A stretch of 64,000 nt of DNA from Christensenellaceae bacterium OttesenSCG-928-K19 (GTDB lineage: Bacteria; Bacillota; Clostridia; Christensenellales; Christensenellaceae). Positions 13,550-59,409 of the stretch are shown here, one piece after another. A program made the position numbers and the translations under genes. The notes under the pieces are model-generated. The model searched no databases. It worked only from the letters and a program-made list of their open reading frames with translations, and was not told the DNA's origin. The first letter of the stretch is position 1, and each line of letters opens with the position of its first letter. The stretch is taken from contig JAJDHD010000001.1 of assembly GCA_030266015.1 (NCBI GenBank), positions 62,001-126,000 of the forward strand, read 5' to 3'.

Positions 13550-13577
13550 TTGACAAAATGACGGGCAGTGCTATAAT
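13550..13577 (+). promoter_or_regulatory. promoter of the epimerase-lyxose isomerase operon
   Basis: TTGACA (13550-13555), 16-base spacer, TATAAT (13572-13577). Both boxes are perfect. A LacI-type operator begins ten bases downstream and would cover the transcription start. Confidence 0.9.
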
Positions 13578-13586
13578 AGAATCATA

Positions 13587-13600
13587 GTTAAACGATTAAC
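13587..13600. promoter_or_regulatory. LacI-type operator 1
   Basis: GTTAAACGATTAAC, a near-perfect 14-bp palindrome with the AAACG centre typical of LacI-family sites. It overlaps the start site of the promoter at 13550. It matches operators at 15385 and 16813. Confidence 0.8.
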
Positions 13601-13731
13601 CAAGTCGAAACAGTTTTCTCGCAGACAAAATTATTCAATCGCAAACAGGCAAGTTAACACAGTCTATCACCACTGGTTTTTTATCCAATCCGCACAAAAA
13701 GCGGAAATATCAAAAAAGGTTGGCAAAGGAA

Positions 13732-14787
13732 ATGAAAACTTACAAAGAACTGAGAAAGTACATTGGGCAGGATTTTCAGGTGTTTGGCGTGCGGGAATCC
13801 AGGCTGGTGGGCGGCAAGCAGGATAATGTCCGCATTGTGGACGCGAAAAGCGGCGGCGGCCTGGAGTTTACAGTGGTTCCCAGCAAGGGTATGGATATAG
13901 CTGATTTCAGCTATAAGGGCATCAATATGAGTTACCTTGCGAAAATCGGGTATGTAAACCCTTATTTTCATGTGGAAGACGGGCGTGACGGGTTTGACCG
14001 TACCTTTATGGGCGGGATACTCACCACATGCGGATTTACGCATATGGGCGCACCCTGTGTGGATGACGGAAGAAAGCTTGGCCTGCATGGCCCGCTGCCA
14101 AATACGCCGGCGGATGATGTGGTTGCCAGAGTGGAATATGACCAGGGCGACGAGCCGGTGATTGTGTGCAAGGGCAGGATGAAGCAGGGGCAGCTCACGG
14201 CGGAATATATCGTATCTGAGCGGGAGATTCGATGCAAATATGGCGAGAACAAGATCACCATAACGGACAGGGTGATGAACCGCGGCTATACAAAGGAGCC
14301 GCTAATGATGCTGTATCATTTTAATTTTGGATACCCGCTGTTGTCGGAGGATACACAGCTTGTGCTGGCGGAAAAAGAATATGAGCCGCGCGATGAGGAC
14401 ACGGCAAAGGGCAAAGACAGGAGATTCCTGTTTGAAGCGCCGGGCGATGGCCGGCCGGAGGAATGCCACTTTTATAAACTGCGCAGCGAAGCGGATGGAA
14501 AGACGGCGGTGCTGGTGAAAAACGAGAAGCTGGGCTTGGCTGTGGTTGTGCGCATGAACACGGAGCAGGTGGGTTATATGACAGAATGGAAGTGCATGTA
14601 TGCAGGCGATTATGCGCTGGGGGTGAATCCGGGCACCTACACACCTATGGGCAGGGTGCATGCGAAAGAGCACGGGCTGCTGCAATACATTGAGCCGGAA
14701 GAGGTAAGGCCTTTTGACTTTGAGCTGGAAGTGCTGGATAGCAAAGAGAAGATTGCTGAAATGGAAAAATATATTACAAGCCTGTAG
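13732..14787 (+). CDS. aldose 1-epimerase-like protein (DUF4432 family)
   Basis: About 351 residues of the galactose-mutarotase-like beta fold, DUF4432 group. The stretch GGGLEFTVVPSKGMDIADFSYKG, LGLHGPLPN and the late GVNPGTYTPMGR are characteristic. It probably equilibrates anomers of, or otherwise binds, the sugar handled by this regulon; no family member has a firmly general substrate. First gene behind operator 1, 18 bases before the lyxose isomerase gene. Start choice is uncertain: TTG 13720 and ATG 13732 are both possible, because AAAAAGG lies far from the ATG and AAAGGA very near it. Confidence 0.8.
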   Translation: MKTYKELRKYIGQDFQVFGVRESRLVGGKQDNVRIVDAKSGGGLEFTVVPSKGMDIADFSYKGINMSYLAKIGYVNPYFHVEDGRDGFDRTFMGGILTTCGFTHMGAPCVDDGRKLGLHGPLPNTPADDVVARVEYDQGDEPVIVCKGRMKQGQLTAEYIVSEREIRCKYGENKITITDRVMNRGYTKEPLMMLYHFNFGYPLLSEDTQLVLAEKEYEPRDEDTAKGKDRRFLFEAPGDGRPEECHFYKLRSEADGKTAVLVKNEKLGLAVVVRMNTEQVGYMTEWKCMYAGDYALGVNPGTYTPMGRVHAKEHGLLQYIEPEEVRPFDFELEVLDSKEKIAEMEKYITSL

Positions 14788-14805
14788 AAAATGGGGGACA
14801 AAAGA

Positions 14806-15363
14806 ATGACAAGGGAAGAAGCAAAAAAACTGACATTGGAATATTTTGATAAGGCATGCATTTACCTGACAGATGAGGAAAAGGAAAATGTGGAAATTGC
14901 CGATATGGGCCTCGACAGGATTGGCGAGATTGGCATACAGATTCATAATTACCTGACGACAAAGCGGTGCAGCGCAAAGGAGATGGTGTTATTTCCGTTC
15001 CAGATTTGCCCAGAGCAATGCCACCCGCCGTTTGGAGATGACCCGGGCAAGGAAGAAACATTCCGTGTGCGCTGGGGTGAGTTGTATGTTTACACGGAGG
15101 GGGCGCCTACAGAGAATATAAAAGCAAAAATACCCGAAGACAAAAAGGATACGTTCCACGTGTTCCATGAAACAATATTGCAGAGGGGTGAACAGTATAC
15201 GGTGGATCCCAATGTGGTTCATTGGATCTGCGGTGGGCCGGAGGGCTGCGTGGTAAGTGAGTTTGCATCGGCCACAAGGGACGATCTGGATATTTATTCT
15301 GATCCGGAAGTGGCCAGGATGCATGGTGTGGAAAACATCTTTGAAAAAGCCTTCCAGGATTGA
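14806..15363 (+). CDS. D-lyxose ketol-isomerase family protein
   Basis: 185 residues of the cupin-type D-lyxose isomerase family, which converts D-lyxose to D-xylulose and often also acts on D-mannose or L-ribose. Metal-binding cupin residues are visible in CPEQCHPP, the nearby GKEETFRV, and the later VDPNVVHWICGG. It supplies a ketose that the FGGY kinase of the same regulon could phosphorylate. The start at ATG 14806 is preferred because GGGGGA lies seven bases upstream; ATG 14791 precedes that site. Exact substrate is not settled by sequence. Confidence 0.85.
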   Translation: MTREEAKKLTLEYFDKACIYLTDEEKENVEIADMGLDRIGEIGIQIHNYLTTKRCSAKEMVLFPFQICPEQCHPPFGDDPGKEETFRVRWGELYVYTEGAPTENIKAKIPEDKKDTFHVFHETILQRGEQYTVDPNVVHWICGGPEGCVVSEFASATRDDLDIYSDPEVARMHGVENIFEKAFQD

Positions 15364-15384
15364 TTGTTCTGGAGAGTGAAAAAA

Positions 15385-15398
15385 GTTAAACGTTTTAC
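15385..15398. promoter_or_regulatory. LacI-type operator 2
   Basis: GTTAAACGTTTTAC, with a perfect AAACGTTT core (15388-15395). It lies after the lyxose isomerase gene and upstream of the lacI-like gene. A weak promoter (TTTACT 15393, TGTAAT 15415) overlaps it, so it may give autoregulation or a roadblock. Confidence 0.7.
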
Positions 15399-15483
15399 TG
15401 TGCTGGGTGGATGGTGTAATGGTATTGTATCCCGGCGGTGTAATTTCCTCCCGTATTACCTATAGGATCATTTGGATGCGTGT

Positions 15484-15510
15484 GCCGGCAGACTGTGATA
15501 CTGCCGGACG
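15484..15510 (+). other. inverted repeat upstream of the lacI-like gene
   Basis: CCGGCAG and CTGCCGG form a perfect 7-bp stem around a 9-base loop. No T run follows. It sits in the 310-base gap between the isomerase gene and the regulator; role unknown. Confidence 0.35.
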
Positions 15511-15614
15511 CGCTCCGAATGGATGGTGCGGCAGGCAAACAACGAAAAGCGCCAAATGCGTCTTTCTATATGAGAAATAGCAAGCTGCTATCGTGTAGCT
15601 GGTTTTTACCGGTG

Positions 15615-15643
15615 TTGGCGGCGGCAAAAAGCAGTGATAAAAT
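15615..15643 (+). promoter_or_regulatory. promoter for the lacI-like gene
   Basis: TTGGCG (15615-15620), 17-base spacer, TAAAAT (15638-15643), ending about 30 bases before the start codon. Moderate match. Confidence 0.5.
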
Positions 15644-15675
15644 AGGACGGTATAGGAAAGCAGGGGTGCGTGTTT

Positions 15676-16683
15676 ATGGCGACAATAAAAGAAGTGGCAA
15701 AGCTGGCGCAGGTTTCTACCGCGACGGTGTCCAATGTTATCACCGGAAAGAAGTATGTAAGCCCAGAGCTTGCAATCAGGATCAATAATGCGATTAAAGA
15801 GCTCAATTACTCTCCCAGCAAAATTGCGCAAAGCCTGAAGGTGCGCAGCACAAATTACATTGGGCTCGTTGTGCCGGACATCACAAACCCTTATTTTGCG
15901 GAGGTTGTGCGCGGCGTGGAAAGCGTTGCGATAGACCAGGATTACCAGATTTTCCTGGTGAACACAGACGGCTCGCGTAAGCGGGAAGAGGATGCGGTCT
16001 CTTCGCTTTTGGAATATCATGTCGCTGGGCTGATCACGGTGGTGCCCCGCTTGCGGGAAGACAGGTTCCGCGAGATACTGTCCATCCCCACGGTGATTAT
16101 CGATAACTTGATGGAAATGAGTGAGCCGAATTTTGGATTTGTGTATACAAACAGCAGAAAGGTATCGGCAGAGGTTGCGCGGCACCTGATGGGCGGGGGT
16201 TACAAAAGATTTGCCTGTATTGCAGGGCCTTCCGATAATGTTTATGCGATCGAATCACGTGTGAGTGGGTTTGTGGAAGAGATTTTGGAAGCGGGCTTTG
16301 ACGAAAAGGATGTGCAGGTGGTTTATGGTAAGAAATATTCCATGGCGGCTGGGTACGAAAAAATGAAAGAGATATTGGACGGAAGCGAAAAGCCGGTCGC
16401 GGTGTTTTGCTGCAGTGATATTATGGCGCTGGGTGCTATGGAGGCGTGTAAGGAAGCGCGATGTAAGATACCGGAGGAAGTGGCGATTGTGGGATATGAC
16501 AATGTGTACTTCGCGTCGCTGTTAGACCCGCCACTGTCCACAGTAAACCAGAAGAAATATGACGTGGGGCAGATTGCCATAACCATGCTGCTGGAACAGA
16601 TAGGCCAAAAGACGGGAAAAAAAGAGAAGCCGCCCAAAAAGATTGCGCTGGATGCTGAACTTATTGTCAGGAAAAGTTCTTGA
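15676..16683 (+). CDS. LacI-family transcriptional regulator
   Basis: 335 residues. The N-terminal helix-turn-helix TIKEVAKLAQVSTATVSNVI is a textbook LacI/PurR DNA-binding head, with the hinge helix near PSKIAQSLKVR. The rest is a periplasmic-binding-protein-like sugar sensor (IGLVVPDITNPYFAEVV; late AIVGYDNV). It presumably binds the three matching operators at 13587, 15385 and 16813 and is released by a sugar or sugar phosphate. ATG 15676 follows AGGGG by nine bases; the in-frame GTG at 15670 is too close to that site. Confidence 0.93.
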   Translation: MATIKEVAKLAQVSTATVSNVITGKKYVSPELAIRINNAIKELNYSPSKIAQSLKVRSTNYIGLVVPDITNPYFAEVVRGVESVAIDQDYQIFLVNTDGSRKREEDAVSSLLEYHVAGLITVVPRLREDRFREILSIPTVIIDNLMEMSEPNFGFVYTNSRKVSAEVARHLMGGGYKRFACIAGPSDNVYAIESRVSGFVEEILEAGFDEKDVQVVYGKKYSMAAGYEKMKEILDGSEKPVAVFCCSDIMALGAMEACKEARCKIPEEVAIVGYDNVYFASLLDPPLSTVNQKKYDVGQIAITMLLEQIGQKTGKKEKPPKKIALDAELIVRKSS

Positions 16684-16760
16684 ATATCAAATATGATGGT
16701 AATGTCGGTGGGAAGGACGTTTTATTCACTCCCATTGCAGAAAAAAGATGAAACGGAAAC

Positions 16761-16789
16761 TTGACAAACATATTATGACGGAATATAAT
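16761..16789 (+). promoter_or_regulatory. promoter of the kinase-glycyl radical operon
   Basis: TTGACA (16761-16766), exactly 17 bases, TATAAT (16784-16789): a perfect consensus promoter. Strong expression is expected when the operator at 16813 is free. The leader to the kinase start is about 275 bases. Confidence 0.93.
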
Positions 16790-16812
16790 TATATTACATT
16801 TTATAGCATTCA

Positions 16813-16826
16813 GTTAAACGTTTAAT
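16813..16826. promoter_or_regulatory. LacI-type operator 3
   Basis: GTTAAACGTTTAAT, palindromic around ACGT, beginning 24 bases after the -10 box. It matches operators 1 and 2 and places the glycyl radical operon in the same regulon. Confidence 0.8.
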
Positions 16827-17072
16827 CGAGATCGAGATTTAGACTATATCCCAAAAGGAAACAGAAAGTAATCTATAAGGAAACAACAGAAATGACGCGA
16901 GCGGGCTTCGTAGACAGCAGGCATCAGATTTTCCGCTACAGGCAGAAACCATGGGAGATTGCGAACAGAGAATTTTGTGCAGAAGGAGAATGGGCTCTTG
17001 CTGGGACAAAATGATTGCCGAGAACACAAAAAGGCATTTAACAAACGAAAAACCAGAGAAGGATTAAAAGAT

Positions 17073-18629
17073 ATGGCTGAAAAGAAATATTTGATTGGAA
17101 TAGATGTGGGCACCACGGGCACCAAGGCAATGATTTTTGATGCGGACGCGGCGGTGTTGGGCGTTGGCTACAGGGAATACCTCGCAAAGAACCCAAAGCC
17201 GGACTGGTTTGAGTTTGATGCGGAGGAAGTGATAAGTCTGACATTTGACGCCTGTCAGGATGCCGTGGCGGAGTCCGGCCTTGATCCCCGAGACATTGTG
17301 GCGGTTAGTTTTTCCACACAACGCTCCACGGTGGGGTTTGTGGACGAAGACAACAGGGTGGTTGATAACATACTATATAGCTGGCAGGACAACAGGGCTG
17401 TGGAAGAAGTGGAATTCCAAAAAAGCATTATGCCAGAGGATGAACTGACCAAAATAACAGGAATGCCTGTGACGACTACATATTGCATCAGCAACATATT
17501 GTGGTTTAAGAAAAACAAACCGGAAGAATATAAACGAACAAAGAAGATTGTGCTTTTGTCTGACCTTTTGATGCGGCGGTTTGGCGCGGACGATTACTAC
17601 TGCGACTGGGGCAATGCATCCTGCTCCGGGATATTTGATATGTGGGGGCAGGACTGGCACAGGGGATTAATTGAAAAATTTGGCTTGGAGTACGAGATGT
17701 TCTCTATTCCTGTGCCCGGTGGAAAAAACCTGGGCAATGTGTCAAAGGAAGCGGCTGAGAAAAGCGGTCTTTCCACCGATACAATACTGATTGCGGGCTC
17801 TGGCGACCAAAGTTGTGGTGCGCTGGGGGCGGGCGTGATAAAGCCTGGCCTTGCGGAGATGACAATTGGCACGGCGGGTCATTTGATTTCTTTTCTGGAA
17901 GAGCCGATAGTGAACGAGCAAGTTTTTAAAATGATGTCGGTGAACGGAGCCATACCGGGTAAATATGAGATTAACGGCATACAGCTTTCCGCAGCCTCCA
18001 TTTACAGGTGGTTCCGGGATACTGTCGCGGTGATTGAGAAGCATACGGCAAAGGAGCTTGGTGTTGACCCGTATGTGCTGATGGATAACTTGGTAAAACA
18101 GTCGCCTCCGGGCGCAAATGGGCTGGTGTTGTTGCCATACTTCGCATCGGCAGGCTGTCCCGTTTGGGATGTGCAGGCAACGGGCGCGCTTATTGGCCTC
18201 ACCTTTATGCATACAAAAGGTGACATGGCACGGGCCTTCATGGAGGGCTGCATGTATGAAATGCGCGAGATTGTGGAAACGATGGAGCAGGCCGGCATTG
18301 ATATAAAGGAGCTCAACATCACGGGCGGCGCTTCCAAATCCGCTACATGGCGGCAGATTATGGCGGATATTCTTAATATACCGCTGAAGATGCTGGTGGT
18401 GAGCGACGCGACTGTACTGGGGGCGGCAATTTTGGCGGGCTATGGCTGCGGGATGTTTAAAACACCGCAGGAAGGCGCGGAGCGCATGGTGAAATTTAGC
18501 GAAAAAGTGACGCCCATAAAAGAAAATGTGGAAAAATATAACCGGTATTATCAAGTGTTCAAGTCCATCTACAAGGGCTTGAAACAAGAAAATGTTTTTG
18601 AAGCCATGGCAATGGCAAGGGAAAGTTAA
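17073..18629 (+). CDS. FGGY-family carbohydrate kinase (xylulokinase-like)
   Basis: 518 residues. Two actin-like ATPase domains: the phosphate-1 loop IGIDVGTTGTKAM at the N-terminus, a sugar-site region with FSTQRSTVGFVDED and YSWQDNRA, and the C-terminal adenosine-loop motif NITGGASKSATWRQIMAD. It is most like xylulokinase or a related ketose kinase and would phosphorylate the ketose made by the isomerase of this regulon. ATG 17073 lies ten bases after AGAAGGA. First gene of the operon that continues into the glycyl radical enzyme 62 bases downstream. Substrate identity is inferred from context only. Confidence 0.85.
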   Translation: MAEKKYLIGIDVGTTGTKAMIFDADAAVLGVGYREYLAKNPKPDWFEFDAEEVISLTFDACQDAVAESGLDPRDIVAVSFSTQRSTVGFVDEDNRVVDNILYSWQDNRAVEEVEFQKSIMPEDELTKITGMPVTTTYCISNILWFKKNKPEEYKRTKKIVLLSDLLMRRFGADDYYCDWGNASCSGIFDMWGQDWHRGLIEKFGLEYEMFSIPVPGGKNLGNVSKEAAEKSGLSTDTILIAGSGDQSCGALGAGVIKPGLAEMTIGTAGHLISFLEEPIVNEQVFKMMSVNGAIPGKYEINGIQLSAASIYRWFRDTVAVIEKHTAKELGVDPYVLMDNLVKQSPPGANGLVLLPYFASAGCPVWDVQATGALIGLTFMHTKGDMARAFMEGCMYEMREIVETMEQAGIDIKELNITGGASKSATWRQIMADILNIPLKMLVVSDATVLGAAILAGYGCGMFKTPQEGAERMVKFSEKVTPIKENVEKYNRYYQVFKSIYKGLKQENVFEAMAMARES

Positions 18630-18691
18630 AGAATTTTCAAAGTTTTGCCCACGGCAAACTTAAAGAAATTATAGAAAAGGAGATATAGAAA

Positions 18692-21139
18692 ATGGAACAG
18701 AATGCTGCGATGCAAATGAACTCTGAAGTTGCAATCCAGATCGAAGACGTGATGCCCAAGGGCTCTCCGGAATACGATCGTTGCCAGAGACTGCGCGCTC
18801 AAATGGTAAACTCAACACCCTATTTCGAAACAGAGAGGGGACTGCTTTACACAGAATCCTACAAGCAGACGGAAGGCGAGCACGCCATGATCCGCAGGGC
18901 AAAGGCACTTGCCCATTGTCTTAGGAATATGTCCGTTTATATTCTGCCGGATGAGATTATTGTGGGGCACAACAACCCACACCAGAGAAGCGGTGGTATT
19001 TTCCCGGAGTATGCGGTTGATTGGATTAAGGATGAAATCGACACATTCCCCACGAGGGCGGCGGATAAATTCCAGGTGGATCCAGAGCAAAAGCGGATTT
19101 TCTTGGAGGAAATCTATCCCTATTGGCATGGTAAAACATTGTATGACAGGATACAGTCCATGATTCCCGAGGATGTAAGGCTTCAGCGGTATGAAGCGCA
19201 GGTGTTTAGCCTGGGCCTGCATGAAGACGGCGGCCTTGCGCACGTTGCTTTGAATCACCAAAAGATCCTTACCAGGGGATTCAGGGATATCCGTCGTGAG
19301 ATTGAGGAGCTGATGGAAGCTACTCCCGCTTGGGGCAAGGATGCACTTGAAAAGAGAAGGTTCTGGCAGGCCTGCCTCATTGAGATTGACGCAGTGATTG
19401 ATTTTGCCAATCGCTATGCTGATTGCGCCGCGAAAATGGCGGCGGAAGAATCTGATCCGCAGAGGAAGGAAGAGCTGGAAGAAATTGCAAGGGTTTGCAG
19501 GCGCGTGCCTGAATACCCGGCAGAGACATTCCAGGAAGCGTGCCAGTGTGTATGGTTTATGCAGTTGATCCCGCAGATTCAGGATAACGGCACATCCTAC
19601 ACCCCCGGCCGTTTCGACCAATATGGCTATCCTTATTATAAGAAAGACCTCGACACCGGAAAGCTTTCCAAGATCAAGGCGCAGGAAATCCTGGAAGCGT
19701 TCTGGATCAAGTTCTCCGAGGCAATTAAAATCTATAAAGACGCGGATGCTACCATTCACGCAGGCCACCCCACAGGCCAGAACATGCAGTGCGGCGGTAT
19801 TGACAGGAATGGCGACGACGCTACAAATGATCTTTCCTACCGTATGCTGGAAAGCCACAGCCACCAGCTTTTGTTCCAGCCCAACTTCACCGTTCGCCTG
19901 CACAGGAGGACGCCGGATGATTTCCTCATTCGCTCGGTGGAGGCGGTGCGCCTGGGAAGTGGCCTGCCACAGATGACGGTGGACGAAACATTTGTGCAGT
20001 CGCTCACAAACATTGGCGTGAAGCTGGAAGACGCAAGGGATTATGTTCCCGTTGGCTGCGTAGAGGTTTCTCCCTTGAACACATGGGGCAGGGGTAACGG
20101 CGGTTATTACAACATGACAAAGGTTGTGGAGCTTGCGCTTAATAGCGGCAAAAACAGGCTTACAGGCACACAGGTTGGCCCCAAGACGCAGGATCCCAAA
20201 ACATTCCAGTCGATTGACGACTTTAAAGAAGCGTTTAAAGAGCAGGTGAACTACACAACGAAGATGAACGTTACGCTCAACAACATCATCGACATGGTTC
20301 ATGAAGAGATGTGCCCGGTGCCGCTCGTTTCCATGATGGTAGATGATTGCGTGCAGAGGGGCAAGGATGTTACCGCGGGCGGCGCGCGCTACAACTGGAC
20401 GGCTCCGCTCACCATTGGTATCGCAAATGCCGGCGATTCTATGGAAGGTATTTTGAGGGGCGTGTTCATTGATAAGAAATGCACGATGGAAGAGCTGGTT
20501 GAAAACCTGGACAACGACTGGAAGGACAACGAAGCGCTTCGCCTGTATTTTGAAAACAAGATTCCCAAGTATGGCAATGACAACGCGGAAGCGGACGCAT
20601 GTCTTCGGTGGATTATGGATACTTACTTTGATTCGCTCGAAGGGCACGAGACGATCCGTGGTGGCCCGTTCGTTGGCTCCTGCATCTCCATTGCGGCCAA
20701 TGTGCCGTTTGGCAAGCTGACAGGCGCAACACCGGACGGCAGGCACAGCGGCCAGCTTCTTGCAGACAGTATCTCGCCGGCAAACGGCCTTGACAGGAAT
20801 GGCCCCACGGCCACGATGAAGTCGGCGGTTGCCGCTATCGATGGAGCAAGGGTGCCCAACGGCGTTATCTTCAACATGAAGCTGAACCCCGGTCCGCTGC
20901 AAACGCCGGAAGGTGTGCGCAAGCTTGCCGACATGATCCGCAGCTATGTGCTGATGGGCGGCATCCAGTGCCAGTTCAACGTTATTTCCGACAAGACGAT
21001 GAAAGACGCACAGGACAACCCAGATAAATACAAGGGCCTCACCGTACGTGTTGCTGGGTACAGCGCGTTCTTCAACGAGCTTGCAAGGGATGTTCAGGAC
21101 GCGATTATCACAAGGACAGAGCACGAGCTGATGTCATAA
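18692..21139 (+). CDS. glycyl radical enzyme of unknown substrate (dehydratase/lyase type)
   Basis: 815 residues, pyruvate formate-lyase superfamily. The active-site loop has a single cysteine followed by glutamate (GCVEV, Cys456 and Glu458), as in glycyl radical dehydratases and decarboxylases. Pyruvate formate-lyase has two adjacent cysteines, so it is excluded. The radical glycine is Gly789 in VRVAGYSAFF. The loop continuation SPLNTWGRGNGGYYN is not one I can place in a named subfamily (choline, glycerol, propanediol, hydroxyproline, isethionate). Start ATG 18692 has AAAGGAGATAT upstream. The activase follows; no microcompartment shell genes are near. It probably acts on a polyol, sugar or sugar-derived intermediate of this regulon. 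Confidence 0.93.
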   Translation: MEQNAAMQMNSEVAIQIEDVMPKGSPEYDRCQRLRAQMVNSTPYFETERGLLYTESYKQTEGEHAMIRRAKALAHCLRNMSVYILPDEIIVGHNNPHQRSGGIFPEYAVDWIKDEIDTFPTRAADKFQVDPEQKRIFLEEIYPYWHGKTLYDRIQSMIPEDVRLQRYEAQVFSLGLHEDGGLAHVALNHQKILTRGFRDIRREIEELMEATPAWGKDALEKRRFWQACLIEIDAVIDFANRYADCAAKMAAEESDPQRKEELEEIARVCRRVPEYPAETFQEACQCVWFMQLIPQIQDNGTSYTPGRFDQYGYPYYKKDLDTGKLSKIKAQEILEAFWIKFSEAIKIYKDADATIHAGHPTGQNMQCGGIDRNGDDATNDLSYRMLESHSHQLLFQPNFTVRLHRRTPDDFLIRSVEAVRLGSGLPQMTVDETFVQSLTNIGVKLEDARDYVPVGCVEVSPLNTWGRGNGGYYNMTKVVELALNSGKNRLTGTQVGPKTQDPKTFQSIDDFKEAFKEQVNYTTKMNVTLNNIIDMVHEEMCPVPLVSMMVDDCVQRGKDVTAGGARYNWTAPLTIGIANAGDSMEGILRGVFIDKKCTMEELVENLDNDWKDNEALRLYFENKIPKYGNDNAEADACLRWIMDTYFDSLEGHETIRGGPFVGSCISIAANVPFGKLTGATPDGRHSGQLLADSISPANGLDRNGPTATMKSAVAAIDGARVPNGVIFNMKLNPGPLQTPEGVRKLADMIRSYVLMGGIQCQFNVISDKTMKDAQDNPDKYKGLTVRVAGYSAFFNELARDVQDAIITRTEHELMS

Positions 21140-21171
21140 GTAGAGCGACATAAAAATTGATAGTTTAAAAT

Positions 21172-21204
21172 CAGTAATGCGGGAGTTGTTATCCCGCATT
21201 ACTG
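21172..21204 (+). other. intercistronic hairpin between enzyme and activase
   Basis: CAGTAATGCGGG (21172-21183) and CCCGCATTACTG (21193-21204) are perfectly complementary, with a 9-base loop. No T run follows on the plus strand. It probably stabilises the upstream message or lowers read-through, so that much more enzyme than activase is made. Confidence 0.7.
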
Positions 21205-21233
21205 GTTAAAAAGGGAAAAGGAATAACTTGATA

Positions 21234-22121
21234 ATGGATGGTAACGTATTTAGTATACAAAAATATAGCGTAAACGATGGCGATGGAATAAGAACGTTGG
21301 TTTTTTTGCAGGGATGTCCCTTAAAATGTCAATGGTGTGCCAACCCGGAATCACAGGCGATTAAGCCGCCTATTCTGTTTACGGGGGATAAATGTATTGC
21401 GTGCAAGCTGTGCCTTGCGGCCTGCCCCACGGGCGCGCTGCGGAATATTGGCGACATAGACAGGAGCAAATGTATATCATGTGGAAAGTGCGCAGAAGAA
21501 TGCCCGGCGGAGGCGCTGGAGCTGAAGTGTAAGCCGCGTAGCATCAAAGAGCTGGTGGATGAGATCGAAAAAGACAGGATGTTCTATTTTATGTCGGATG
21601 GGGGCGTCACCTTCTCTGGTGGGGAACCATATGTGCAGTGGGAGTTTTTGAAGGAGTTGGGCGACGCGTTGAAGAAAAAGGGCCACCATTTGGCAATTGA
21701 GACGACCGGCTTCGCGAAATGGGAGCATATAGAGCATTCGGTGGATAATATCGATTTGTTTTTGTACGATATTAAATCGATGGATGACGAGGTGCATAAG
21801 AAATATACGGGAGTCTCCAACAAGCTGATTTTGGAAAATGTGCGGAAGCTGGGAGAGCTGGGCAAAAGGATCATTGTTCGGGTGCCCTTGATGGGCGGCA
21901 TTAACGATGACGAGGAGAATATCCGGAAAACTGCGGAGCTGGCGCTGGAAGTGGGCGCGGATGCGCTTCACCTTTTGCCGTATCACGAATTTGGCACGGT
22001 GAAATATGGCAAAATTGGCAAGGAGTATGAATGCGACGCGACAACGCCTACGGAAGAGCAGACAGCGGAGCTGAAAGAAATGATAGAGAAAATGGGTATT
22101 CCATGTGTGATCCGCGGCTGA
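21234..22121 (+). CDS. glycyl radical enzyme activating protein (radical SAM)
   Basis: About 295 residues. It reductively cleaves S-adenosylmethionine and abstracts hydrogen from Gly789 of the neighbouring enzyme. The radical SAM cluster motif is GCPLKCQWC (CxxxCxxC). Two extra 4Fe-4S motifs follow, [12 protein letters not shown] and [12 protein letters not shown], the ferredoxin-like insert found in activases of dehydratase-type enzymes but absent from the pyruvate formate-lyase activase itself. FSGGEP is the SAM-binding GGE motif. ATG 21234 is chosen; TTG 21228, nearer to AAAAGGA, is an alternative. Confidence 0.94.
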
Positions 22122-22176
22122 CAGGCGTATAGATGATGCCTGCGCACAGCATGTGCTGAACAGAAAGGACAATGGT

Positions 22177-22818
22177 ATGTACGAGATCGAAAAAATTGAA
22201 ATGATAGAGACAGCCTTAAAGATGAAAGAATACAGGCTGATTGCAATGGCGGGCGGTAATGTGAGCCTTCGCCTGGGCAATGGCCATTTTCTAGTCACTC
22301 CTTCCGGTATGGAGTATGACAAAATGAGGCCGGATGATATATTGGAGGTGGACGCGGAAGGCGCTGTGGTAAATGGCCATTGGCGGCCGTCGGTCGATCT
22401 TGTGGCGCTTTTGTATATTTACAAAAACCTGCCGGATGTGAACGCAATTATTCATACGCACCAGGTGTACGCCACTGCGGCGGGGCTTATTGGCGATGTG
22501 CTGCCCGCAGCGGTTACAACGCTTGCAAACTGTACGCTGGGGCCGGTGAACGTGGCGGATTATAGCTCGGCGGCAAGCCTGGAGATGGGTGTGCAAGCGG
22601 TAAAATTCCTGGATGGAAAACGCGCGGTGATCTTGAAAAACCATGGCGTGATAACAGTGGGCGGCAACTTGGACGAAGCGCTGCACGCTGCTGTTTATAT
22701 GGAAGACGCCGCAAAAACATACCTGTTGGCGAAAGCAGCGGGCACGCCCGTTATTTTGACGGACGAACAGGTGGAAGAAGCGGTGGACGCATACAAAAAA
22801 TGCGGTCAGGATAAATAA
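22177..22818 (+). CDS. class II aldolase / ribulose-phosphate 4-epimerase family protein
   Basis: 213 residues with the adducin-type fold. Visible are GGNVSLR and TPSGMEYD (phosphate-binding loops), HTHQVYAT (zinc histidines) and LKNHGVIT (third zinc histidine). The catalytic acid position reads PSVDLVALLY. An Asp here resembles L-ribulose-5-phosphate 4-epimerase more than fuculose-phosphate aldolase, which has Glu. It may cleave or epimerise the phosphorylated ketose made by the FGGY kinase. ATG 22177 is seven bases after AGAAAGGA. The next gene starts 5 bases after its stop. Confidence 0.85.
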   Translation: MYEIEKIEMIETALKMKEYRLIAMAGGNVSLRLGNGHFLVTPSGMEYDKMRPDDILEVDAEGAVVNGHWRPSVDLVALLYIYKNLPDVNAIIHTHQVYATAAGLIGDVLPAAVTTLANCTLGPVNVADYSSAASLEMGVQAVKFLDGKRAVILKNHGVITVGGNLDEALHAAVYMEDAAKTYLLAKAAGTPVILTDEQVEEAVDAYKKCGQDK

Positions 22819-22823
22819 CGGCT

Positions 22824-23522
22824 ATGAGTGAAGAGACAACCAGAATTGCTTTTTATGAAGAACTGGATAAGCTTTATGCAACGGGCGATATAGGCGCGGT
22901 AGAAGAATACCTGCAAAAGGAGTTGAACGCCCATGTGCGTACCTGCGCCCGCTGTTATGATTCGCTGGAGATCTCAGCGCTAAACGAATTGGGCACACTC
23001 TACCGCAATACGGGCCGTATTGGCGAGGCGATTTCATCATTCGAGTCGGCACGAAAGATTATTGAGATCTATCTTGGGACAGACTCGCTGGAATACGCGA
23101 TGATATTAAATAACCTTGCGGGGGCATATAGGCTCTGCGGAGAGGCGGAAAACGCGCTAAAGCTGTATCTGGCATGTCTTGTGGCCTATGAAGGAGCGAT
23201 GGGCAGGGAAAACAGGTATTATTGCGGCGCACTCAATGACATTGCCCTTATTTGCCAGCAGCTGGGACGGTTTTCGGATGCGGAGGAGTATTTACTGCTC
23301 GCGGTTGAACTGTTGCAACAGTTGCCGGACGGAAAACAGGAATATGCCGCCGTGTGCGAGAATCTTGGATATGTTTATGAAAGCGTGGATAACAGTGGTA
23401 AGGCGCTGGAGTGGTTGTCACTTGCCAAAAAGGCGCGTGAAGAACTGGGGGAAACCGGCACGCAGGAATATGAAAACCTGACAGGCCGTATATCCCGGCT
23501 TTTGGGGAATGCGCCGTCTTGA
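22824..23522 (+). CDS. tetratricopeptide-repeat protein
   Basis: 232 residues made of helical TPR-like repeats, for example AEYALLN-style segments at EYAMILNNLAGAYRLCGEAE, RYYCGALNDIALICQQLGRF and EYAAVCENLGYVYESVDN. There is no signal peptide or membrane helix, so it is cytosolic. TPR proteins mediate protein-protein contacts. It starts 5 bases after the aldolase stop, so it belongs to the sugar operon, but a TPR protein is not a usual member of glycyl radical or pentose loci. It may scaffold or protect one of the enzymes; this is inference. Confidence 0.8.
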   Translation: MSEETTRIAFYEELDKLYATGDIGAVEEYLQKELNAHVRTCARCYDSLEISALNELGTLYRNTGRIGEAISSFESARKIIEIYLGTDSLEYAMILNNLAGAYRLCGEAENALKLYLACLVAYEGAMGRENRYYCGALNDIALICQQLGRFSDAEEYLLLAVELLQQLPDGKQEYAAVCENLGYVYESVDNSGKALEWLSLAKKAREELGETGTQEYENLTGRISRLLGNAPS

Positions 23523-23621
23523 AAGCGGACTGTGGCAAAATGCAGGCAATGATGTGTTGACAGCATTGTTGCACTGTATATAGAATGAAGTAAATACTAA
23601 GCGCCAAACGGGAGAATAAAA

Positions 23622-24098
23622 ATGAAAAAAATTGTAATCGGAGCGGATATTAGCGGGTTTGAGCTGAAAGGGTTTGTAGAAAGCTACCTGCAGGGGATTG
23701 GCTATGAGGTGCTGGATGTAGGCACAAAAAAGGCGGAAGCACCGGTGGATTATTGGACTGTTGGCTTTAACGTGGGCAAGGCGGTATGGAGCGGGGAATT
23801 TGACCGCGGTATTGTGATCTGCGGAACAGGACAGGGAGTGGCACTGGCAGCCAACAAGTTTCCCGGGGTGTATTGCGGGCTGTGCGAGTCGGTTTATGCG
23901 GTGGACCGCGGCCGCACGTTTAACAACATCAATGTTCTTGCGTTGGGCGGCTTTTTGCAGGGGAAGGGTCTGGCGCAGGAGATGATTGACACTTTTTTGA
24001 ACACGGAATGGAAGCAGGGTGTGGACGCAGACACGGCAGTGCTGCTGGAGGATGCCTACGAGGCTATGAAAGAGCATGAAAAAGCCATGTTTAAGTGA
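23622..24098 (+). CDS. RpiB/LacAB-family sugar isomerase homologue, atypical active site
   Basis: 158 residues with the RpiB fold: N-terminal VIGADISGFELK, the active-site loop ICGTGQGVALAANK with Cys67, and NINVLALGG. Key positions differ from ribose-5-phosphate isomerase B. The DHAG histidine is Ile (ADISG), the second histidine after LC is Glu (LCESV), and the C-terminal GGRHxRR phosphate-binding arginines are absent (EWKQGVDAD). A related isomerase with a different, perhaps unphosphorylated, substrate is more likely than ribose-5-phosphate isomerase. GGAGAATAAAA precedes ATG 23622. Last gene of the operon. Confidence 0.85.
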   Translation: MKKIVIGADISGFELKGFVESYLQGIGYEVLDVGTKKAEAPVDYWTVGFNVGKAVWSGEFDRGIVICGTGQGVALAANKFPGVYCGLCESVYAVDRGRTFNNINVLALGGFLQGKGLAQEMIDTFLNTEWKQGVDADTAVLLEDAYEAMKEHEKAMFK

Positions 24099-50082: not shown

Positions 50083-51843
50083 TTATTTATACAATGGGCC
50101 ATAGGTTGTGCATGCCCGGTAATCTGCCCCTTCGCGGTCGGTTGTGCCAAACGCGTTCCACGCTGCCGGGCGGAAGATGTTCTCCTCCGGCACGTTGTGC
50201 ATGTTTACAGGAATGCGCAGCATGGAGGCCAGCGTAATAAACTCCGCGCCCACGTGTCCGTATACGCTTGCGCCGTGGTTTGCTCCCCAGTGCGCCATCA
50301 CAGAGTATACATCCTTAAATGCGCCCTCGCCTGTCAGTCTTGGGGCAAACCATGTGGATGGCCATCCCTCGTCTGTCCGCTTTTCTATAATCGCCGCCGC
50401 GTCGTTGCCAAGGTCGCAGGTATAGCCCTCAGCAATTTGCAGCACAGGCCCCAGCCCGTCAACCATGTTTAGCCGTACCATGGTGATGGGCATGCCGCCC
50501 ATCGTGCGGAATTTGCTGGAGAACCCGCCGCCGCGGAAATACCCAAGGTTGCCGGGCACCCATTGCGTCGCGTCCAGGCAGGCCTTTTCTTCCTCTTCGC
50601 TAATCTCCCAATATGGCTTCATCGCAGGCTTGCCGTCCTTTTGCTGCTGCCCGGAGAAGTCCAGCGCCGTCGCCCCGCTGTTGATCAGGTGAATAATGCC
50701 GTTCTCCGCGTATCCCGTGGGTTTTTTGCCGGTCACGCGTTCCAGCGATTCCGGGCTCCAATAGGTGCGCACATCGCTGAATGCCGCTGCAGAATTTGTC
50801 AGCAGGTGACCCATCAGCATAGAGAGGCCGTTCAGGCAGTCGTTTTCCGTCGCCACCACATAGGGCCGGCGTATGCCGTTCCAGTCAAAAGACGAACAAA
50901 GTATGCTTTCCAAAAAATCGGCATTGGGCATGAAGTCTGTCCACTGCCGTTGCCCCTGGAACCCTGCGGCTATGGCGTTGTTGCCGTTGCCTTCCTCGTT
51001 CCAGCCAATGTCCTTCAAATGCTGGGAGCCGTCCATCATGTCCTTGACGATAAGCGCCATTTTTACGCTATATTCCCAGTCCGCGTCAAATCCCGCCTGG
51101 TCTTTGCCGTTTTCGCCGTTGTAATAATCCGGTCCTTGCTTGCAGTTCTCCTTTGTCCACGCAAGCGCTTTTTTAAATTCATCCTTGTTGTAGATTTCTT
51201 TTTCCACACGCCGGATAATCTCACTCATGTCCTTATATTCGCAACGCATACCAAAATATTTCTCAAACAACTCCGGATTCACAATGCTGCCCGCAATCCC
51301 CATGGACACGTTGCCGAGTGACAGGTATGCTTTGCCCTTCATCTCGCCCACGGCCACGGCGCTTCTGGCAAACCGCAGAATCTTCTCTTGCACGTCCGCC
51401 GGGATAGACCTGTCGTCTGCCTCCTGCACCTCGTGCCCATAGATGGAAAATGCAGGGATGCCCTTTTGCGCGTGTGCTGCCAGCACAGCCGCAAGGTATA
51501 CCGCCCCCGGGCGTTCCGTTCCATTAAAGCCCCAAATTGCCTTGGGCGTCGATTTGTCCATGTCCATTGTTTCACTGCCATAGCACCAGCATGGTGTTAC
51601 GGTGAGCGTGCCACACACACCTGCGCGGTCAAATTTTTCCTGGCAGGCTGCGGCCTCCGCTACTCCCGCAATTGTGCTGTCCGCAATTACGCATTCCACC
51701 ACATTGCCGTCGCGGTCTTTGATATTCGCCTCTATGAGAGCTTTTGCTGCCTGTGCCATTCCCATCGTTTGCTCTTCCAGGCTTTGGCGGACGCTCTGGC
51801 TGCCCTCCCGTCCGTCTATCGTTGGGCGTATCCCTAATTTCAT
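50083..51843 (-). CDS. fucI: L-fucose isomerase
   Basis: 586 residues, normal for FucI, a Mn-dependent isomerase of L-fucose to L-fuculose (also D-arabinose to D-ribulose). Metal and base residues are in place: Glu333 in [11 protein letters not shown], Asp357 in FSDVRTYW and a late His in [11 protein letters not shown], matching the E. coli triad with a small offset. The N-terminal GIRPTIDGR is conserved. Last gene of the operon. No fuculokinase or fuculose aldolase is in this operon, so the rest of the pathway lies elsewhere. Confidence 0.95.
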
Positions 51844-51904
51844 CTATGCTTCCTCCTTTAAGAAATATAATAAAAAATATTGCTCCTCGGTTTCAGTGTC
51901 ATAC

Positions 51905-52228
51905 TCAGTCCAGGCGAAACACTTCCTCCATGTCTGCCCACCATTCTCCCTCGACAATTGTGTCAAGTGGCTGCTGGCAGGGCTTGCATTCGTCCCACCA
52001 TTTTTGCGTTGTGGGGTCTGCCGCCATTTTTGCCATGTCCGCTTCATAGTTATCGCCGGTATATTCATAATAAGAAAACAAATACCCATCCCGTAGAAAA
52101 ATGGTATAATTTTTGATATTGCATTCTTTGATCATATCCAGCACTTCAGGCCATGCGTTCGCGTGTAAATCCCTATAATACGCTTCCTTTTCCGGCCTGA
52201 CCTTTATTACCTGTCCATACCGTTTCAT
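51905..52228 (-). CDS. RhaM-family sugar mutarotase
   Basis: 107 residues, L-rhamnose mutarotase family. The catalytic His is in LHANAWPEV (His21), and KWWDECKP and EVFRLD match the family's Trp pair and C-terminal end. It interconverts alpha and beta anomers of a 6-deoxy-hexose. Beside fucI, L-fucose or a related deoxy sugar is a reasonable substrate. Its ATG overlaps the stop of the preceding UroD-fold gene by four bases. Confidence 0.88.
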   Translation of the reverse strand: MKRYGQVIKVRPEKEAYYRDLHANAWPEVLDMIKECNIKNYTIFLRDGYLFSYYEYTGDNYEADMAKMAADPTTQKWWDECKPCQQPLDTIVEGEWWADMEEVFRLD

Positions 52229-53382
52229 TGCAGCTCCTCCAGTTCTTTTTTAATCCGTTCCATGTCCAGCGGAAAAGTGCCATATTCGCGCGCCAGCTCT
52301 ACCATGTAGGCATAGCTCTCCGCCGCCACATCGCTGGAGACGGAATGGTCGCTCTGGCAGATATACCCGCCGCCCTGCGCGGCCTGCAATTTATACAACA
52401 CTTCGCGCTTAATCCTGCGCTTGTCGCCGCTCTCCAGCTCGCGTACATCAATGTTGCCCACAAACGCCAGCCTGCCGCCATACGTTTTTTTCAGTTCCAC
52501 CACGTCAAGGTGTGCCTTCACCTCCACGGGGTTATATCCCTTTAGCCCGATTTCTATGAAGTCTTCATAAACAGGTGTGGCGTTGCCGCACCCGTGATAA
52601 ATCATCATTAACCCGGCTTTGTTGCATTCTGCGATAATGCGCTGTGTGATGGGCTTGAATATCTCCCGCCATTTTTCCGGGGAAAACAACATGCCGTTTA
52701 CATAGGCGATATCGCCCCAGATATACATGCCGGATAGCTTTCCTTTTGCTTTTTCGATCTGCGCTTTGGTAAGGCCCACGAGAAAATCACCCACACGCTG
52801 CATAAAATCCCCAAAAAGCTCCGGCTCCAGCATCATCCAGTACAGCGCGTTTTCCGTTCCCATGCACCGCCAAACATATTCATAGCCCTCGCAAACGGAA
52901 CCAAACACCGGGAAATCTTCGCAATACGCGTCTACCCTGCTGATCCAGCTGGGGATTTCAAATGTGATCGCGTCGCCCAGACCGTTGATCTGGTCGCCGC
53001 CGCTGCGCTCCAGCCTGCGCGGGTCGTTTGCCGGCTCTATCACAAACCCTGCCATTTCCTCCGGTTCCTTAATGGAAAACTCTTCAAAGTGCGGCATGGG
53101 CAGGTCGCCCCGACGCAGCACTGTCGCGCCAAAGCCCGTCTTCACAAGGATATCGTCTCCCTCTTGCCGCAGGATTTCAAAATCCTGTATCACAGGATCC
53201 ATGTTTGGATTCACAACAATATAATCCAGATCAAACTTCCGGTAGATGTCTACATCCTCTCCCCATGCCTTGCGCGCATTCTTCAAAAAACCCGTCCAGA
53301 AAAAATCGCTGACGGGCACCCGGTCCCCCTCTTTGTGGTCAAGCGCCGCTTGTAGGCGCAAAAGCTTTTGCTGTTTGCTCAT
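52225..53382 (-). CDS. UroD-fold protein 1 with methyltransferase-type zinc motif
   Basis: 385 residues, uroporphyrinogen decarboxylase superfamily. The N-terminal RQAGR signature of true UroD is absent. It has His263-x-Cys265 in IYHGCGN and Cys342 in YICQSDHS; the 76-residue gap fits the His-x-Cys...Cys zinc site of MtaA/MtbA-type corrinoid methyltransferases. It may therefore bind zinc and a thiol or move a methyl group. No corrinoid protein is encoded nearby. ATG 53382 follows GGAGG; fourth UroD-fold gene in operon order. Confidence 0.85.
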   Translation of the reverse strand: MSKQQKLLRLQAALDHKEGDRVPVSDFFWTGFLKNARKAWGEDVDIYRKFDLDYIVVNPNMDPVIQDFEILRQEGDDILVKTGFGATVLRRGDLPMPHFEEFSIKEPEEMAGFVIEPANDPRRLERSGGDQINGLGDAITFEIPSWISRVDAYCEDFPVFGSVCEGYEYVWRCMGTENALYWMMLEPELFGDFMQRVGDFLVGLTKAQIEKAKGKLSGMYIWGDIAYVNGMLFSPEKWREIFKPITQRIIAECNKAGLMMIYHGCGNATPVYEDFIEIGLKGYNPVEVKAHLDVVELKKTYGGRLAFVGNIDVRELESGDKRRIKREVLYKLQAAQGGGYICQSDHSVSSDVAAESYAYMVELAREYGTFPLDMERIKKELEELQ

Positions 53383-53416
53383 TTTTGCCTCCATTTGCCT
53401 ATATGGGAGATAGTGC

Positions 53417-54454
53417 TCAGTCTTGCTCCTTTGCCGCCTCGAACATTGCTTCTATATTTGCAGGGCTTACATCCGGCATGATGGCCTCGTGGCTGGGGGA
53501 AATAATAAGCCCGGAGGGGAAAAGCCGCCGCAAAAAGCGCACCTTGTTTTTAACATCCCCGGCACTGCCGTTTACCAGCAGGTCTTGCGTATCCACGCCA
53601 CCGCAAAAAGCGCCCATTCCGCTAAATTCTTCTTTCAGTCGCTCCGGTTCCATGCCAGCCGCCAGCGCTTGTATGGGGTGCACCACGTCCACACCGATGT
53701 CAAACAAATCCGGAATAATTTCAGAGATTGCGCCGCACGAATGATAGAGTACCTTTAGCCCATATTCTTTGGCCTGTTCCACCAGCCTCTTTGCGCCGGG
53801 CAGCACAAATTGCCGTATCATGTCTGGCGAAAGCATAAGCCCGCGCTGGCTGCCCATATCGTTGCCAATGAGCACGGCGTGCAACCGTCCCCGCGCGCAC
53901 TCGTAAAAAATCTTGTTTGCCCGTAGGTAAAAATCAACAATCTTATCATCCACTGCCCGGTATAGTTCGGGGTTGGCAATCATGTTCATCAGCGCGTTTT
54001 CCATGCCAAACGCGGCACAGGTATCTTGGAAGTGTGCCGACCATGCCATGCCAAGGATTGCCTTGTCCTTGGGAACCGATTGAAATAAATCCTCACACGC
54101 ATCCGCAGAGATATACCGCTCTGGCTCTGGCCAGTGAAACTCATCCACCGATGCCACATCTTCTTTGTCCGCAAACCAGCCTTCCTCAGTCAGGGTGCGG
54201 TCGTGCGAATCCACATCGCCGCTTTGCTGAAAATCAAACGCAGCGTAGATTGCGTCACTTGTAGGGGATTTATAAGGAATCTCTACCGGATACAGGTCGT
54301 CGTCTATCTTTTGCTTCAGTTCTTTTAGATCGCTTACGCCAAAATATTCATATAATCCAGGAAGGGAAAGCGCGTCTGGCATACCCAGCCAGCTTGCGGG
54401 GTGATCCACCTCTTCCCTTGCCACTGTTTTCATAAAACGTTCGATGCTGTTCAT
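53417..54454 (-). CDS. UroD-fold protein 2
   Basis: 345 residues. Family features are GNDMGSQRGLMLSPDM and VLYHSCGAISEIIPDL (His238, Cys240). The third cysteine is missing; the aligned segment reads IISPSHEAIMPDV. It is close to UroD-fold protein 4 in these blocks. Without the third ligand it may use a different metal site or bind without metal. GGAGGATGAAA precedes ATG 54454. It sits 34 bases upstream of protein 1. Confidence 0.85.
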   Translation of the reverse strand: MNSIERFMKTVAREEVDHPASWLGMPDALSLPGLYEYFGVSDLKELKQKIDDDLYPVEIPYKSPTSDAIYAAFDFQQSGDVDSHDRTLTEEGWFADKEDVASVDEFHWPEPERYISADACEDLFQSVPKDKAILGMAWSAHFQDTCAAFGMENALMNMIANPELYRAVDDKIVDFYLRANKIFYECARGRLHAVLIGNDMGSQRGLMLSPDMIRQFVLPGAKRLVEQAKEYGLKVLYHSCGAISEIIPDLFDIGVDVVHPIQALAAGMEPERLKEEFSGMGAFCGGVDTQDLLVNGSAGDVKNKVRFLRRLFPSGLIISPSHEAIMPDVSPANIEAMFEAAKEQD

Positions 54455-54494
54455 TTTCATCCTCCAGATTGTATTCTTACCCTCTGTCAAACGC

Positions 54495-55796: not shown

Positions 55797-55886
55797 GTCA
55801 GTATCCTTTCTGTACAAAGAACGCTAAATTTTTATGATGCATCAGATGTAGCTATACTATGTCCATGGATTCAGTAGAGATAGTGT

Positions 55887-56939: not shown

Positions 56940-57026
56940 TCGCTATTCCTCCGGCAAGCATTTGCTTGAAAAAACCGTTTGAAAGAGGGGGATGGCTCCC
57001 CCTCTTAAACGGTGTATTGTGAGCCT

Positions 57027-58307: not shown

Positions 58308-58366
58308 TTTTTTCCTCCTAGTTTTATAGTCTGTTTTTTTCAAGGCATTTTTGCCTGAAATTTGGT

Positions 58367-59407: not shown

Positions 59408-59409
59408 TG

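Follow-up and report, generated by a model that had tools for sequence, protein, structure and literature searches.

The window analysed here is a stretch of 64,000 nucleotides from contig JAJDHD010000001.1 of Christensenellaceae bacterium OttesenSCG-928-K19. It is part of a 2.63 Mb assembly that is 72% complete, to which the genome-wide counts below refer. Between positions 13720 and 24098 the window carries a sugar gene cluster with a glycyl radical enzyme (GRE) of an uncharacterised subfamily. Nine genes, all on the plus strand, were confirmed by family models or homology, and they cover all the gene families named in the first-pass annotation. That annotation had placed the start of the cluster at 13732, while the first open reading frame (ORF) begins at 13720 (TTG). 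The genes and predicted regulatory sites are listed below; loci compared with the window carry L numbers.

13550-13577, plus strand: promoter TTGACA-16-TATAAT, 12/12 match
13587-13600, plus strand: predicted operator O1, GTTAAACGATTAAC, 9 nt downstream of the -10 box
13720-14787, plus strand: DUF4432 aldose 1-epimerase-like protein, probable mutarotase (PF14486, 289 bits; homologous to 3ty1)
14791-15363, plus strand: cupin aldose-ketose isomerase of the D-lyxose/D-mannose (YdaE) type, Gln variant (7nzo, E=6e-58; 2y0o, E=6e-44)
15385-15398, plus strand: predicted operator O2, GTTAAACGTTTTAC, upstream of lacI
15670-16683, plus strand: LacI-family repressor, RbsR/PurR-like (family models)
16761-16789, plus strand: promoter TTGACA-17-TATAAT, 12/12 match
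16813-16826, plus strand: predicted operator O3, GTTAAACGTTTAAT, 23 nt downstream of the -10 box
17073-18629, plus strand: FGGY carbohydrate kinase, pentulokinase-like (TIGR01312, 326 bits, below the XylB cut-off of 380)
18692-21139, plus strand: GRE of an uncharacterised subfamily (PF02901, 711 bits; PF01228, 98 bits; TIGR01774, 795 bits)
21234-22121, plus strand: GRE activase, a radical S-adenosylmethionine (SAM) protein with ferredoxin-type cluster motifs (TIGR02494, 345 bits against a cut-off of 174; CPLKCQWC motif)
about 22177-22818, plus strand: class II aldolase/pentulose-phosphate 4-epimerase homologue (PF00596)
22824-23522, plus strand: tetratricopeptide repeat (TPR) protein from a family encoded next to GREs (homologues in L211, L212, L213 and L214)
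23557-23586, plus strand: promoter-like site TTGACA-18-TAGAAT, 5' of the rpiB-like gene, 11/12 match, no operator
23622-24098, plus strand: RpiB/LacAB-family protein with a substituted active site (135.2 bits against a cut-off of 135)

The DUF4432 and isomerase genes are separated by 3 bp. The kinase, GRE, activase, class II and TPR genes follow one another with gaps of 5-94 bp, the activase gene lying 94 bp 3' of the GRE gene. The rpiB-like gene, with its own promoter-like site, starts 99 bp after the TPR gene. The structure 3ty1 is described as a 'hypothetical aldose 1-epimerase', and DUF4432 genes are also found near a GRE and an isomerase in L039 and L040. The window FGGY kinase is 67% identical to its orthologue in L037.

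Three near-palindromic operators, GTTAAACGWTTWAY, lie at 13587, 15385 and 16813, 5' of the DUF4432 gene, lacI and the kinase gene, respectively. When up to one mismatch is allowed, the window contains three such sites against 0.03 expected from shuffled sequences, and none of 100 shuffles reached three. The near-identical operators described in the first-pass annotation are in fact the only such sites in the whole 2.63 Mb genome (0.43 expected). Operators O1 and O3 follow closely on perfect sigma-70-type promoters, which is the classical position for a repressor. We infer that the cluster is a LacI-controlled regulon, with predicted operators in front of the DUF4432, lacI and kinase transcription units; judging from the operators, the two operons would share their regulation.

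The window GRE contains the glycyl radical loop RVAGYSAFF and the cysteine motif VGCVE, and is in this respect catalytically complete. All the hallmarks of the GRE superfamily are present (RVxGYS loop, active-site Cys and a nearby radical SAM activase), and the enzyme passes TIGR01774, the model for the PFL2/glycerol dehydratase subfamily (795 bits against a cut-off of 678). It reaches none of the NCBIfam GRE equivalog cut-offs, falling at least 40% below every one: HypD (612 of 1100 bits), CutC (578 of 1050), HpsG/HpfG (595 and 598 of 1000 each), PFL (149 of 994), IAD (441 of 1100) and HPAD (340 of 1150). An identity as HypD was rejected on its model score. The best matches in the PDB are the B12-independent glycerol dehydratase CbGD (1r8w), 9rco, an unnamed 'glycyl radical protein', and propanediol dehydratase (5i2a). 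The window GRE is 41% identical to CbGD and to 9rco, and 37% identical to PflD and YbiW.

The active site separates the enzyme from its closest solved relatives. In CbGD numbering, the window GRE keeps His164, Ser282, Cys433, Glu435 and the radical Gly. Four residues differ: His281 is changed to Thr, Tyr339 to Gly, Asp447 to Asn and Tyr640 to Ile. Gly339 is common to the window GRE and PflD, while PflD retains Asp447. We take His164, His281, Ser282, Asp447 and Glu435 to be the diol-binding residues of glycerol and 1,2-propanediol dehydratases. At positions 164, 281, 282, 447 and 435 the window GRE has H, T, S, N and E, which departs from the glycerol/propanediol pattern. Replacement of His281 by Thr or Val, Tyr339 by Gly and Asp447 by Asn removes the contacts to glycerol and propanediol, and on these pocket residues an identity as propanediol or glycerol dehydratase was rejected. 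A uronate radical decarboxylase was dropped because the Glu/His pair of the diol dehydratases is retained. An AlphaFold model of the window GRE built from 8 sequences was poor (pLDDT 59.5) and supports no claim made here.

The window GRE belongs to an 18-member clade with a support of 100 in FastTree and 99 in IQ-TREE (SH-aLRT). None of the tree's reference sequences (CbGD, 9rco, YbiW and PflD) is part of it; for other characterised GREs the comparison was by model score only. Membership in a YbiW/PflD group was rejected on tree position and gene context. The clade has the residue signature H-(T/V)-(S/A)-G-E-N and keeps His164, Cys433 and Glu435, and His281 (to Thr or Val), Tyr339 (to Gly) and Asp447 (to Asn) are replaced in every member. 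Relatives at 47-57% identity occur in four Christensenellaceae genomes and also in Ruminococcaceae, Lachnospiraceae, Family XIII, Spirochaetota and Planctomycetota; those of the second set were detected by an alignment-based scan of genome contigs, where a scan with the single protein had returned none. The clade is uncommon: sampling of 391-398 genomes per rank yielded scores at the clade's level (>1,400 bits) in Christensenellaceae only. Plasmids gave no match at the DNA level and only GREs of less than 60% identity at the protein level, the best among the matches listed being 37-38% identical. We found no description of this GRE branch in the open-licence literature; subscription papers were mostly outside that search, so an earlier report is possible. 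The host genome encodes three further GREs that are 37-38% identical to the window GRE (G000:C1:38963-41359, G000:C2:22142-24541 and G000:C62:59076-61475), and one relative, G006, has an unusually large set of 14 matches in this GRE class.

The genes around the clade GREs point to sugars. Neighbourhoods were counted from ~8 kb upstream of the GRE start to 10 kb downstream, for the 18 clade loci and for 66 other GRE loci from the same scan. A lyxose-isomerase-type gene was counted at 9 of the 18 clade loci against 0 of the 66 others (Fisher p=1.3e-7), and FGGY kinases at 7 and 1, respectively (p=5e-5). These p-values overstate the association, since several contigs are short and some loci depend on one another (L039/L040 and L054/L061 being near twins). 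DUF4432 genes are found in 3/18 and 0/66, and ribose-type ATP-binding cassette (ABC) importers in 8/18 and 7/66. The nine lyxose-isomerase-type neighbours belong to three sequence-divergent families: the YdaE type (window and L037-L040), PF07385 (L054 and L061) and a planctomycete cupin isomerase (L057 and L067). In L050 the clade GRE is accompanied by the L-fucose isomerase FucI. L054 combines PF07385 with a kinase above the xylulokinase equivalog cut-off (470 against 380), and the L061 homologues of this isomerase and kinase are 79-86% identical (86% for the kinase). GRE and isomerase genes are directly adjacent in L038, L039, L040, L057, L067 and L213. The last of these is a sister-group locus with the order ABC-activase-GRE-isomerase-TPR-FGGY and an Rpe-like ORF; another sister-group locus, L215, reads FucI-activase-GRE-ABC. 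The first-pass annotation had proposed locus conservation as a check on its reading, and the check came out in its favour: isomerases, pentulokinases and monosaccharide ABC importers recur in Firmicutes, Spirochaetota and Planctomycetota. The window GRE and its clade are an unassigned, sugar-linked subfamily in a known superfamily, not a new kind of system. Clear membership in a characterised subfamily, which the first-pass annotation held would speak against an undescribed route, was found for none of the subfamilies tested. Together with the conserved sugar neighbours, these tests support its idea that an undescribed route for a sugar or polyol includes an oxygen-sensitive GRE step.

Two clade GREs are encoded in L038 (4644-7046 and 12149-14557), around one ABC importer and one activase; the pair suggests a duplication with new specificity. 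Elsewhere in the window, a second sugar cluster occupies 50083-61985 on the minus strand. It encodes FucI (50083-51843, 1024 bits), four proteins that resemble UroD, a substrate-binding protein, two permeases and a ribose-type ABC ATPase. The clade GREs of L042 and L051 likewise have UroD-like neighbours.

Several partner enzymes of the window GRE have altered active sites. The metal ligands of YdaE-type isomerases are, we assume, a His-x-His motif, a Glu and a His. The window isomerase has EQCH in place of EHRH, so that the first His of His-x-His is replaced by Gln. All seven Christensenellaceae isomerases carry this Gln, while the His is present in 7nzo, 2y0o and 40 of 40 other Bacillota copies. 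Six of the seven Gln-type isomerases are linked to a GRE; the seventh, in L211, is in a module with xylulokinase, DUF4432 and a substrate-binding protein, with a sister-type GRE ~11 kb away. No GRE was found in the 1.5 kb flanks of the 40 His-type copies. We considered D-lyxose as the substrate of the window pathway but make no such claim, since a metal-ligand His is missing from the partner isomerase. In the class II protein the three Zn-binding His residues are retained, and Asp stands in place of FucA E73, as in AraD (equivalent to Asp76). AraD D120 is replaced by Asn, the Y229 equivalent is absent, and other AraD and FucA residues are missing. In RpiB, presumably, Cys66 and His99 are catalytic and His10, Arg133 and Arg137 bind phosphate. 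Compared with the E. coli protein, the window homologue has lost four of these five residues (H10 to I, H99 to F, R133 to V and R137 to T) and kept C66; it likely acts on a different substrate, as judged from these residues. With partner active sites altered in this way, the substrate cannot be read from family names alone. The labels lyxose-type isomerase and RpiB homologue in the first-pass annotation should be read as statements of homology, not of function.

The TPR protein is a further partner. Its homologues lie beside GREs or one gene away in four other Christensenellaceae loci (L211:5402-6367, L212:12428-13378, L213:9267-10235 and L214:9868-11022), and none was seen by a GRE in the 80 GRE loci of the named-genome scan. 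In the open-licence literature searched, we saw no TPR protein described as a partner of GREs. As a guess, it could serve as a chaperone or in protection of the radical.

Comparison with known systems defines what is distinct about the cluster. With CbGD and propanediol dehydratase the window GRE shares the PFL-like family, the GCVE motif, His164, Ser282, Glu435 and an adjacent activase gene. It differs in the four changed residues, in the placement of CbGD outside the clade, and in a cluster that contains neither a microcompartment nor an aldehyde dehydrogenase. The first-pass annotation had made the latter observation correctly; the shell protein family PF00936 is absent even from the whole assembly (72% complete). 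Its premise that a GRE dehydratase is normally paired with a microcompartment or aldehyde dehydrogenase was too broad, as E. coli ybiW and pflD have no microcompartment genes adjacent. HypD, the trans-4-hydroxyproline dehydratase, is likewise a GRE dehydratase that is not tied to a microcompartment. Since such GREs are well known, the missing microcompartment is not in itself surprising. The HypD activase model gives the highest score for the window activase (349 bits), whereas the GRE itself scores far below the HypD cut-off and has sugar, not proline, neighbours. YbiW and PflD act in the breakdown of 1,5-anhydroglucitol and 1,5-anhydromannitol (anhydroglycolysis), where they open the ring of anhydrohexitol 6-phosphates (PMC12441222). 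They resemble the window GRE in the sugar-sized substrate expected here, in Gly339 (PflD) and in having no microcompartment, but differ at positions 281 and 447, are only 37% identical and lie outside the clade. PflD has phosphotransferase system (PTS) genes and GldA/FsaB as neighbours and YbiW has FsaA, unlike the isomerase, FGGY kinase and class II aldolase of the window. Catabolic modules for D-lyxose and L-ribose, made up of a cupin isomerase, an FGGY pentulokinase and an epimerase, share with the window cluster an isomerase homologous over its full length to 7nzo, a kinase and the AraD-like class II Asp at FucA position 73. In the window, by contrast, the metal His is replaced by Gln and the RpiB homologue is without the usual substrate-binding residues. 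To our knowledge, these modules contain no GRE.

We propose, with a probability of about 0.5, that the cluster serves to break down an uncommon sugar, or a derivative of one, as a regulon induced by its substrate, with the GRE as a C-O lyase at the pathway entry. The order of steps, the C-O lyase chemistry and the entry position are inferred as follows. LacI would repress the two operons, and probably itself, until the inducing sugar lifts repression. The activase would install the glycyl radical on the GRE, and the cysteine thiyl radical would then abstract hydrogen from a carbinol carbon in an unphosphorylated substrate the size of a monosaccharide. The GRE would expel the adjacent C-O substituent by dehydration, ring-opening or ether elimination; the Glu435-type residue would act as general base and the His164-type residue as general acid. 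The aldose formed or left over may be mutarotated by the DUF4432 protein and isomerised to a ketose by the Gln-type cupin isomerase. The ketose would be phosphorylated by the FGGY kinase and epimerised or cleaved by the class II protein, and the product would enter the pentose phosphate or glycolytic pool with no net redox step. The retained Cys/Glu/His set suggests that the GRE carries out an elimination of the usual kind, adjacent to a carbinol carbon. An open pocket without the glycerol contacts points to a sugar-sized substrate, and the absence of a PTS, with a kinase downstream, to an unphosphorylated one. The GRE is placed at the entry because the set of mutarotase, aldose isomerase, pentulokinase and 4- or 3-epimerase fits an unmodified aldose.

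Several observations weigh against this proposal. In known GRE eliminations the carbon adjacent to the new carbonyl ends up as CH2 or CH3, and we know of no case in which the deoxy product of an ordinary dehydration is a substrate of an aldose isomerase or xylulokinase. The expected deoxy product makes it hard to connect the GRE to the isomerase substrate without a variant in the leaving group. There is no transporter in the window cluster. No aldose isomerase was seen in the stretches covered for 8 of the 18 clade loci, although several contigs are short. In L042 (12520-16239), a D-threitol-dehydrogenase-like short-chain dehydrogenase/reductase (SDR), DhaK, a DhaL-RpiB fusion and a second SDR accompany the clade GRE instead of an isomerase. 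This arrangement resembles a tetritol-type pathway with a GRE, and the different gene content suggests that substrates probably vary across the clade. Either the aldose departs as the expelled group, or the GRE serves a side branch. The first option leads to a more specific and quite tentative proposal: the clade would represent a new GRE activity, a radical C-O lyase that frees an aldopentose from an ether- or glycoside-like sugar conjugate or else forms one from a polyol derivative, working with a specialised Gln-type isomerase and a GRE-dedicated TPR protein. The aldopentose may be, for example, of the D-lyxose, L-ribose or D-arabinose type, depending on the partnered isomerase.

In the second option, which is conceivable but doubtful, the GRE uses an imported ketose, alditol or sugar as an electron sink, in a side branch that runs alongside the isomerase-kinase route and does not supply the isomerase with its substrate. 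Redox-balancing dehydrations benefit obligate fermenters, and the isomerase/xylulokinase/DUF4432/substrate-binding protein module of L211 has no adjacent GRE and can apparently stand alone. However, the direct adjacency of GRE and isomerase in the six loci given above speaks against it, and the window cluster encodes no reductase for a deoxy-carbonyl product. The GRE is unlikely to be a downstream diol dehydratase that takes 1,2-propanediol, ethylene glycol or glycerol from a class II aldolase step, as in fucose and rhamnose degradation with a GRE propanediol dehydratase. In favour of this reading, glycerol and propanediol dehydratases are the nearest relatives of known structure, an isomerase with an FGGY kinase and a class II aldolase forms the deoxyhexose layout, and FucI is encoded at 50083-51843 of the window and beside GREs in L050 and L215. 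Nevertheless, His281, Tyr339 and Asp447 are replaced in all clade members, the 72%-complete assembly has no microcompartment, and neither lactaldehyde reductase nor aldehyde dehydrogenase is found in the cluster. In addition, the GREs of L054 and L061 are paired with a xylulokinase-type kinase, with no class II aldolase found there.

A ring-opening like that of YbiW and PflD on phosphates, but with an unphosphorylated 1,5- or 1,4-anhydro-alditol as substrate and a 1-deoxyketose as product, is rather improbable for the GRE. Gly339 and the sugar-sized substrates are consistent with such a reaction, but an aldose-ketose isomerase cannot take a 1-deoxyketose. PflD and YbiW also lie outside the clade, the clade has Asn where PflD keeps Asp447, and the cluster contains no PTS or FsaA-type aldolase. 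A last alternative concerns regulation. LacI and CcpA have a common operator core, and the AAACG-centred sites look like cre sites, so that a global CcpA-like regulator might bind them and the GRE operon would merely be under carbon catabolite control. This is very unlikely; with up to one mismatch the genome has only three sites, all within the cluster and flanking its own lacI, and CcpA sites were rejected on this count.

GREs perform some of the hardest anaerobic bond cleavages in the gut, yet for many of the abundant ones the reaction is not known (PMC11574389). One GRE branch now has a boundary, an active-site signature and recurring partner genes in several phyla. Its member in the window has a named repressor, operators and an inducible-looking promoter, which makes its substrate findable. 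If that substrate is a sugar conjugate or polyol, the branch would add a further type of sugar-acting GRE to those of anhydroglycolysis and give pentose metabolism a redox-neutral entry route.

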